Assembly (NCBI GenBank): GCA_937896565.1 | Contig: CALBOV010000112.1 | Coordinates: 1-51,649 of the forward strand | Direction of reading: 5' to 3' | Length of the DNA stretch: 51,649 nt | From: an uncultured Salinisphaerales bacterium | Lineage (GTDB): Bacteria; Pseudomonadota; Gammaproteobacteria; Nevskiales; OUC007 | In this document: piece by piece, positions 3,323 through 40,957 of the stretch | Layout: each line of letters starts with the position of its first letter | How positions within the stretch are numbered: the first letter of the stretch is position 1 | Made by a program: the position numbers and the translations under genes | Notes under the pieces: model-generated | The model's input: only the letters and a program-made list of their open reading frames with translations | What the model was told of the DNA's origin: nothing | Database searches by the model: none

Positions 3323-3799
3323 TCAGAGCAGGGCTTCGATGTCCTTGCGCAGCGACGCCGGCTTGTCGGTCGGCGCGTAGCGCTTCACGACCTCGCCCTT
3401 GGGGTCGACCAGAAACTTGGTGAAGTTCCACTTGATCCCCTTGGAGCCCATCACGCCCGGCCTGGCCGTCTTCAGGCTCTGGTAAAGCGGATGCGCATTG
3501 GGGCCGTTCACCTCGATCTTGGCGAACATCGGGAAGCTGACGTCATAGGTCAGCGAGCAGAAGTTCTTGATCTCGTTCTCGTCACCGGGTTCCTGGTGAC
3601 CGAACTGGTCGCAGGGAAAGCCCAGCACGGCGAAATCGCGGTCCTTGTACTCCTGGTACAGGGCTTCGAGGCCCTCGTACTGCGGAGTGAACCCGCACTT
3701 GCTGGCGGTGTTGACGATCAGCAGCGTCTTGCCGGCATAGTCGCCGAGCGACTGCTCCTGACCGTCGATGGTCTTTGCGGAATGCGTATGAATGCTCAC
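3323..3799 (-). CDS. glutathione peroxidase (Cys-type)
   Basis: LIVNTASKCGFTPQYEGLEALYQEYKDRDFAVLGFPCDQFGHQEPG...KWNFTKFLVD, GPx family signatures. Confidence 0.95.
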   Translation of the reverse strand: MSIHTHSAKTIDGQEQSLGDYAGKTLLIVNTASKCGFTPQYEGLEALYQEYKDRDFAVLGFPCDQFGHQEPGDENEIKNFCSLTYDVSFPMFAKIEVNGPNAHPLYQSLKTARPGVMGSKGIKWNFTKFLVDPKGEVVKRYAPTDKPASLRKDIEALL

Positions 3800-3993
3800 G
3801 GGCGGCGACTCATCGGTTCGGGGCGAACGGGGAGTCTAGCGCGCCGCGGTTCGCGGTCACTAATCCTCTGAGGACGCGACCTCGGGTGGGACGATGCAAC
3901 TGGCGACAGGCGTGGCCTCGCAATCGCACGCCGGGAGCGCAGGGAGCGTGCAGGACACCTCCGTGACCTCCGCCGTGCAGACCTTGGAACAAT

Positions 3994-4017
3994 GGGCTGT
4001 CAGGCTGTCAGGCTGTC
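3994..4017 (-). repeat. tandem octamer repeat GACAGCCT GACAGCCT GACAGCCC (minus-strand sense), 3 units
   Basis: Read directly: plus strand gggctgtcaggctgtcaggctgtc; two perfect units plus one 7/8 unit. Confidence 0.95.
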
Positions 4018-4317
4018 GCCACAACTACAGGCCGGGAGGGTGGGCTCCACGCATGCAATTTCGACGACCGGAGCCCCGCACACGTTCGAGCAGTGACTGG
4101 CGGTGACCTTCGGTTCCCCGTCGCTTGATTTGGGGCGAATGCCGCCAAGGGTGATGTCGTCGACGACGAGTAGTGTGCGAGCAAGAGTGCGGTCTGAAGG
4201 CGAGCGGCAATCCACAGCCCCATCGTAGTCGGGGCAATTGTATGTGGTCATGGTGCCGCTCAGTGAGGAGCATGCGCCAAGCAATATGACTGTACTTAGG
4301 ATGCCGATGGTCCTCAT
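4000..4317 (-). CDS. small cysteine-rich lipoprotein, apparently frameshifted; restored reading frame would span 3860-4317
   Basis: MRTIGILSTVILLGACSS lipobox; CSNVCGAPVVEIACVEPTLPACSC; downstream frame encodes a second homologous copy CSKVCTAEVTEVSCTLPALPACDC. Confidence 0.7.
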   Translation of the reverse strand: MRTIGILSTVILLGACSSLSGTMTTYNCPDYDGAVDCRSPSDRTLARTLLVVDDITLGGIRPKSSDGEPKVTASHCSNVCGAPVVEIACVEPTLPACSCGDSLTA

Positions 4318-4363: not shown

Positions 4364-4519
4364 TCAGTCGTCCGTGCCAGGGCTGACCGCGGGTGGATCG
4401 CTGGCCGGGAAGGATTCCCTGCCGGCTTCGTCGATCAGTTTGTCTTCGTGTTCCTTCGGAGTCTCGTCCTTGCGGTCCTCGGGCTCCGGTACGTTTTCGT
4501 TCTGGGTGCCAGGGTTCAT
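4364..4519 (-). CDS. small acidic hypothetical protein (51 aa) with C-terminal ESFPASDPPAVSPGT motif
   Basis: MNPGTQNENVPEPEDRKDETPKEHEDKLIDEAGRESFPASDPPAVSPGTDD; DEA..ESFPASDPP is a recurring motif of short bacterial hypothetical proteins. Confidence 0.75.
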   Translation of the reverse strand: MNPGTQNENVPEPEDRKDETPKEHEDKLIDEAGRESFPASDPPAVSPGTDD

Positions 4520-4601
4520 GCAACCTCCACCTGGGGAAACTCCGGTTGCACTATACGCTCCCGCGGAACGTTGATCTCCCGCCCGCGGGAACGCATCTAG
4601 T

Positions 4602-39745: not shown

Positions 39746-40957
39746 TCAACGCGAGGCCAACCAGCCAATCGGGTCGACGGCCCGTTGCCCCTTGCGCAGT
39801 TCGAAATAAACGCCGCTCTCGCGGTGTCCGCCGCTGTTTCCGGCGGCGCTGACGGCTTCACCGCTGCGCACCCATTCGCCGATTTGCACATAGGCGGTCT
39901 GGTTGTGTCCGTAGAGCGAATACCAGCCATCGTCGTGTTCGAGTACCACGAGCACGCCGTAGCGGTGCATCCAGCCGACATAGGCGACGCGGCCGCTCGC
40001 CACGGCCTTGACCGGGTCGCCTTCGTCGGCGGCGATCCAGAGTCCCTTCCAGCGAATATTGCCGGCCTTGGGCTGGCCGAATCCGGCCAGCAACCGTCCG
40101 CGCAGCGGCCAGTCCACCGCACCCTTGCGCTGGGTGATTGGCTCGTCGTCGTCCAGCACCAGCGGGATGTCGGCGAGCACGTCCTCGAGGCTGGCGAGCA
40201 GATCCCGCAGCTGTTGCTCGTCGGCCTCCAGTTGTTCGACTTCCAGTACGGAGTCGCGAATCTTCGATTCCAGCGTGGCCACGGCCTGTTCCCGTTGCTC
40301 GCGCGTCTCCTCCAGGGCATCCAGCGATCGTTTGCGCTTGGCGAACAGGGCTTCCAGCGAGCGGATTTCGCCGGCGAGCTGGTCCTCGAGCTTGCGCAAT
40401 GCCTTGGCGGCGGTGGTGAAGGACTGAATCCGCTCGCTGCGGGCCTTGGCCAGGTAGTCGTAGTAGGTCAGCACGCGACCGATCGCGGCGGGGTCTTCCT
40501 GGTTGAGCAGCAACTTGGTCCGGCCCTGGCGGCCGATCTGGTAGGCCGCGCGAATCTGGTGCTTGAGCGTCTCGCGCTCGCGCTCCACGTCCTTGAGCGC
40601 CTGATCGCGCGAGCGGCGTGTGCGCTGCATGCGGGATTCCGCCGAGTTGATGTCGCCTTGCAGTGTCGTCAGCGTCTGGCTCAGCTCGCCGATCCTGGTC
40701 TCGGTGGCCTCAAGCTCGCGGAACAGCTTGCCGCGGCGTGAACGGTCACGGTCGACTTCCTTCTTCAGCGCCTGGAGGCGGGCGCGGACGCGCTCCAGTT
40801 CCGCCGTCGTCTGCTCCATGCGATCGCCGTCGGGCTCCGCGAAAACCGGAGAGGCCAGAGCTGCCGCAGTCAGCAGCCCGACGCCCCAAATGACGCGCGC
40901 GACGAATCCCGGCCTTCTACCGATGGCGCCCCAATGCGATAATCGTGTGCTTTGCAC
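39746..40957 (-). CDS. envC: murein hydrolase activator EnvC (coiled coil plus LytM/M23), GTG start inferred
   Basis: Signal peptide VIWGVGLLTAAALASPVFA, long coiled coil, LytM KGLWIAADEGDPVKAVASGRVAYVGWMHRYGVLVVLEHDDGWYSLYGHN. Confidence 0.93.
   Translation of the reverse strand: MQSTRLSHWGAIGRRPGFVARVIWGVGLLTAAALASPVFAEPDGDRMEQTTAELERVRARLQALKKEVDRDRSRRGKLFRELEATETRIGELSQTLTTLQGDINSAESRMQRTRRSRDQALKDVERERETLKHQIRAAYQIGRQGRTKLLLNQEDPAAIGRVLTYYDYLAKARSERIQSFTTAAKALRKLEDQLAGEIRSLEALFAKRKRSLDALEETREQREQAVATLESKIRDSVLEVEQLEADEQQLRDLLASLEDVLADIPLVLDDDEPITQRKGAVDWPLRGRLLAGFGQPKAGNIRWKGLWIAADEGDPVKAVASGRVAYVGWMHRYGVLVVLEHDDGWYSLYGHNQTAYVQIGEWVRSGEAVSAAGNSGGHRESGVYFELRKGQRAVDPIGWLASR

Follow-up and report, generated by a model that had tools for sequence, protein, structure and literature searches.

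Near the start of the DNA analysed here, an ORF for an apparent lipoprotein stops inside a short tandem repeat of octamers, and a second module resembling the end of this protein follows directly in another reading frame. This raises the question whether the gene is switched on and off by gain and loss of repeat units, or whether it was truncated by a recent 8-bp duplication; the initial annotation had proposed both possibilities. The window, i.e., the whole stretch of 51,649 nucleotides that was analysed, belongs to an Abyssibacter MAG, a MAG-like draft of 4.07 Mb in 414 contigs with 88.5% completeness. In the NCBI taxonomy, Abyssibacter is placed under Oceanococcaceae, Chromatiales. The coordinates, translations and repeat described in the initial annotation were all reproduced in the sequence, and the gene consists of the following parts:

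4000..4317, minus strand: truncated lipoprotein ORF with signal peptide, lipobox (LGA/C), linker and module 1 minus its sixth Cys (profile match at 4015-4104, E 2.1e-9)
3994..4017, minus strand: octamer array, GACAGCCT twice followed by GACAGCCC, with the TGA at 4002-4000 inside it (read from the sequence)
3860..3994, minus strand: module 2, a complete six-Cys module in the other frame, HCSKVC...CDCEATPVASCIVPPEVASSED-TAG (profile match, E 3e-17; AlphaFold2 pLDDT 87)

The truncated ORF (4317-4000) comprises 105 aa, starts with ATG downstream of a GGAGG sequence and has the C-terminus ...CSCGDSLTA directly before the TGA. Its signal peptide and lipobox, MRTIGILSTVILLGAC, were recognized by inspection, and a scan for promoters and terminators gave no result. 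Within the 24-nt array (4017-3994), which occurs only once in the genome, a stretch of 23 nt (4017-3995) has a perfect period of 8. The array is not a product of chance: when the window was shuffled 40 times with dinucleotides preserved, arrays with a period of 7-9 and at least 2.75 copies never arose, and 469,470 bases from other contigs contained none of this kind with a period of 7-8. Period-8 dimers with at least seven matches, on the other hand, are common, with six in the window versus 4.9 expected.

Five of the six Cys residues of module 1 precede the stop, and the TGA lies one codon ahead of Cys 6. It directly follows an Ala that is invariant in the family alignment (see below), where a single residue separates this Ala from the sixth Cys. 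Module 2, which ends with the TAG at 3860, is read in a different frame from the truncated ORF. The homology between the two modules is real, since their Cys spacing is identical and the family profile matches both. From H to H, the distance between module 1 and module 2 is 101 nt, corresponding to 31 codons plus 8 nt (93 + 8), which bears out that the frame is broken by one extra 8-nt unit. Because module 1 stops before Cys 6 and module 2 is out of frame, so that the lipobox frame contains no complete module, the gene is a broken member of a family of six-Cys lipoproteins. In family members with the x8 spacing, Cys 1 and Cys 6 are 31 residues apart. Since this equals the inter-module register, Cys 6 of module 1 would, without the extra 8 nt, also be Cys 1 of module 2, with the spacing typical of the family.

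The family was collected by searches with a profile built from three modules (A2) and then with a larger one (A3), the matches being read by script and by eye. This yielded 15 lipoproteins in 13 genomes, 12 of the same order and one outside. In all 15 relatives a single C-terminal module is present, always with six Cys in the pattern C-x3-C-x8/9-C-x7-C-x-C-x7-C, and the lipoboxes were recognized by eye. In the alignment, module 2 of the window gene shows the same spacing (3-8/9-7-1-7). The window gene thus shares with its relatives the lipobox, a variable linker and the Cys pattern, but it has two modules with the frame broken between them, whereas the relatives have one intact module. Homologues ending at GDSLTA, named in the initial annotation as evidence against a truncation, did not occur (0 of 15); all relatives extend to the sixth Cys. 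The proposed tandem-module protein found a counterpart in none of these lipoproteins, as a second module was present in no relative, and what argues for it comes from within the gene, namely the 31-codon register and the saturated synonymous divergence between the modules (see below).

Weak profile matches (E > 1e-4) mostly proved to be without the Cys pattern once read and were left out. One weak match in the protein search of the order was rejected because it overlapped the end of an electron-transfer flavoprotein oxidoreductase-like gene. A direct search of genome contigs with the truncated ORF found no relatives, and a search of plasmids and 399 genomes of the phylum gave no match beyond the window.

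Comparison of the two modules gave a pS of 0.76, which is saturated, and a pN of 0.30, which is not. Mismatches at codon positions 1, 2 and 3 numbered 9, 6 and 16, respectively, a modest excess at third positions (p 0.027, 25 codons). Since the synonymous divergence is saturated and the nonsynonymous divergence is not, module 2 must have been translated long after the duplication. No further lesions were seen in it, and the gain of the octamer is therefore recent. The earlier suggestion that a formerly longer protein was truncated recently agrees with these data. In our view, the gene was probably disrupted by a recent slippage expansion from two to three units, which truncated a two-module lipoprotein gene.

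The gene is flanked by two syntenic anchors:

4367..4522, minus strand: small upstream ORF of about 52 aa with an ESFPASDPP motif, a syntenic anchor conserved in both congeners
3323..3799, minus strand: glutathione peroxidase gene, the downstream syntenic anchor (PF00255, E 2.9e-42)

At the equivalent site, congener G001 carries a 188-aa one-module lipoprotein flanked by the small ORF and the glutathione peroxidase gene. In congener G002 (Abyssibacter sp. SW_4_13, JAGLCS010000153.1, a contig of 6980 bases), the corresponding interval is devoid of a lipoprotein gene. The ESFPASDPP ORF is located between YqeY and the lipoprotein gene and was found in three Abyssibacter genomes (window 4367-4522, minus strand; L006:2024-2209; L005 about 1242-1390). 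It had no match in Pfam, and the window copy had none in NCBIfam either.

The comparison with G001 also bears on the quality of the assembly. If the third unit were an artefact of assembly or amplification, the cell would hold two units and an intact gene, which the draft character of the MAG, with its incompleteness and many contigs, might suggest. However, ordinary reads can span an array of only 24 nt, and the orthologous genes of the window are free of other frame breaks against G001. ORFs matched to G001 were read in a single frame throughout, with three apparent exceptions elsewhere in the window that turned out to be spurious ORFs or over-extended starts. Because these ORFs stay in single frames, stray indels are rare in the window and the assembly is not likely to be rich in indel errors; we regard an artefact as unlikely.

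A different explanation for the third unit is reversible phase variation, in which the two-module lipoprotein and its truncated form would alternate as units are gained and lost, and the MAG would represent the OFF state. The gene resembles SSR contingency loci (PMC11868660) in that the unit length is no multiple of three and the product is a surface-type protein, and the array is far from chance expectation. SSR switching, however, rests on hypermutable repeat numbers (reviewed in PMC11868660), whereas the window array consists of about three octamers, is known as a single allele from one genome of the species and is not conserved. An octamer array was present at the homologous place in none of 13 relative genes scanned, the gene is missing from G002, and dimers such as the presumed parent are about as frequent as expected. 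Another parallel is offered by the spontaneous sequence duplications that control phase variation in pneumococcal capsule genes, at the type 3 locus and in cap8E and tts (Waite et al., 2001, 2003, as cited in PMC4022640). There, as in the window gene, the frame is shifted by a short tandem duplication within the ORF, which could be reverted precisely; for the pneumococcal capsule genes phase variation was observed in culture, whereas for the window gene one genome state is known. Since 13 relative genes are without the array and one congener is without the gene, the array is not a conserved contingency locus. The ON/OFF switch considered in the initial annotation was thus not supported, and phase variation of this gene is unlikely. 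Somewhat less likely still is that a low-copy array exactly at the shared Cys serves to switch between the two-module and the truncated lipoprotein, which would make module number, and not expression alone, phase variable; if the array did switch, slippage-based variation would reach an environmental (marine) genus.

For the favoured recent expansion, we propose the following history. The ancestral gene would have encoded an envelope lipoprotein in which a six-cysteine beta module, probably disulfide-bonded, occurred twice, with one Cys common to both copies at the junction and a period of 31 residues. The junction DNA would have held a chance 15-nt period-8 dimer (GACAGCCTGACAGCC), at which slipped-strand mispairing might have added an 8-nt unit, shifting the frame and leading to the TGA. 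We infer the ancestral two-unit allele from the present sequence, since an intact two-module homologue was not found. The current product would be a 105-aa lipoprotein in which module 1 has five of its six Cys and module 2 is missing, and it is most likely non-functional or impaired. That the truncated form is functional, or that module 2 is still produced via frameshifting or reinitiation, is scarcely credible: the sixth Cys is kept in all relatives, the truncated module has an odd number of Cys, the frame of module 2 contains no ATG, GTG or TTG ahead of the Cys core, and a known slippery signal was not seen in the sequence, although the ORF has retained a good ribosome-binding site and the lipobox. 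With an old module duplication, a long coding life and a recent gain of 8 nt, the locus would neatly capture a slippage mutation whose history can be traced.

Searches of Pfam, NCBIfam and PDB sequences with the module gave nothing credible. The AlphaFold2 model of the module has four strands (mean pLDDT 87), and a fold search of the PDB with this model gave no match at an E-value of 10 or better. Gene neighbours outside Abyssibacter, judged from ORF lists, gave no functional hint. The intact protein is likeliest to be a disulfide-stabilised envelope lipoprotein. The analysis also brought to light a small, previously undescribed six-Cys lipoprotein module of this order.

A further tandem repeat in the window, with two 33-bp copies at 40313-40377 (TRF score 79), lies in an EnvC-like coiled-coil/peptidase gene, which is in one frame against G001. 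In four of the six-Cys lipoproteins (L119, L117, L118, L107), QSVGPGGVQQ-type repeats in variable number are located between the lipobox and the module. One genome of the order (G047) encodes three paralogous lipoproteins with the six-Cys module (L119, L129, L130).
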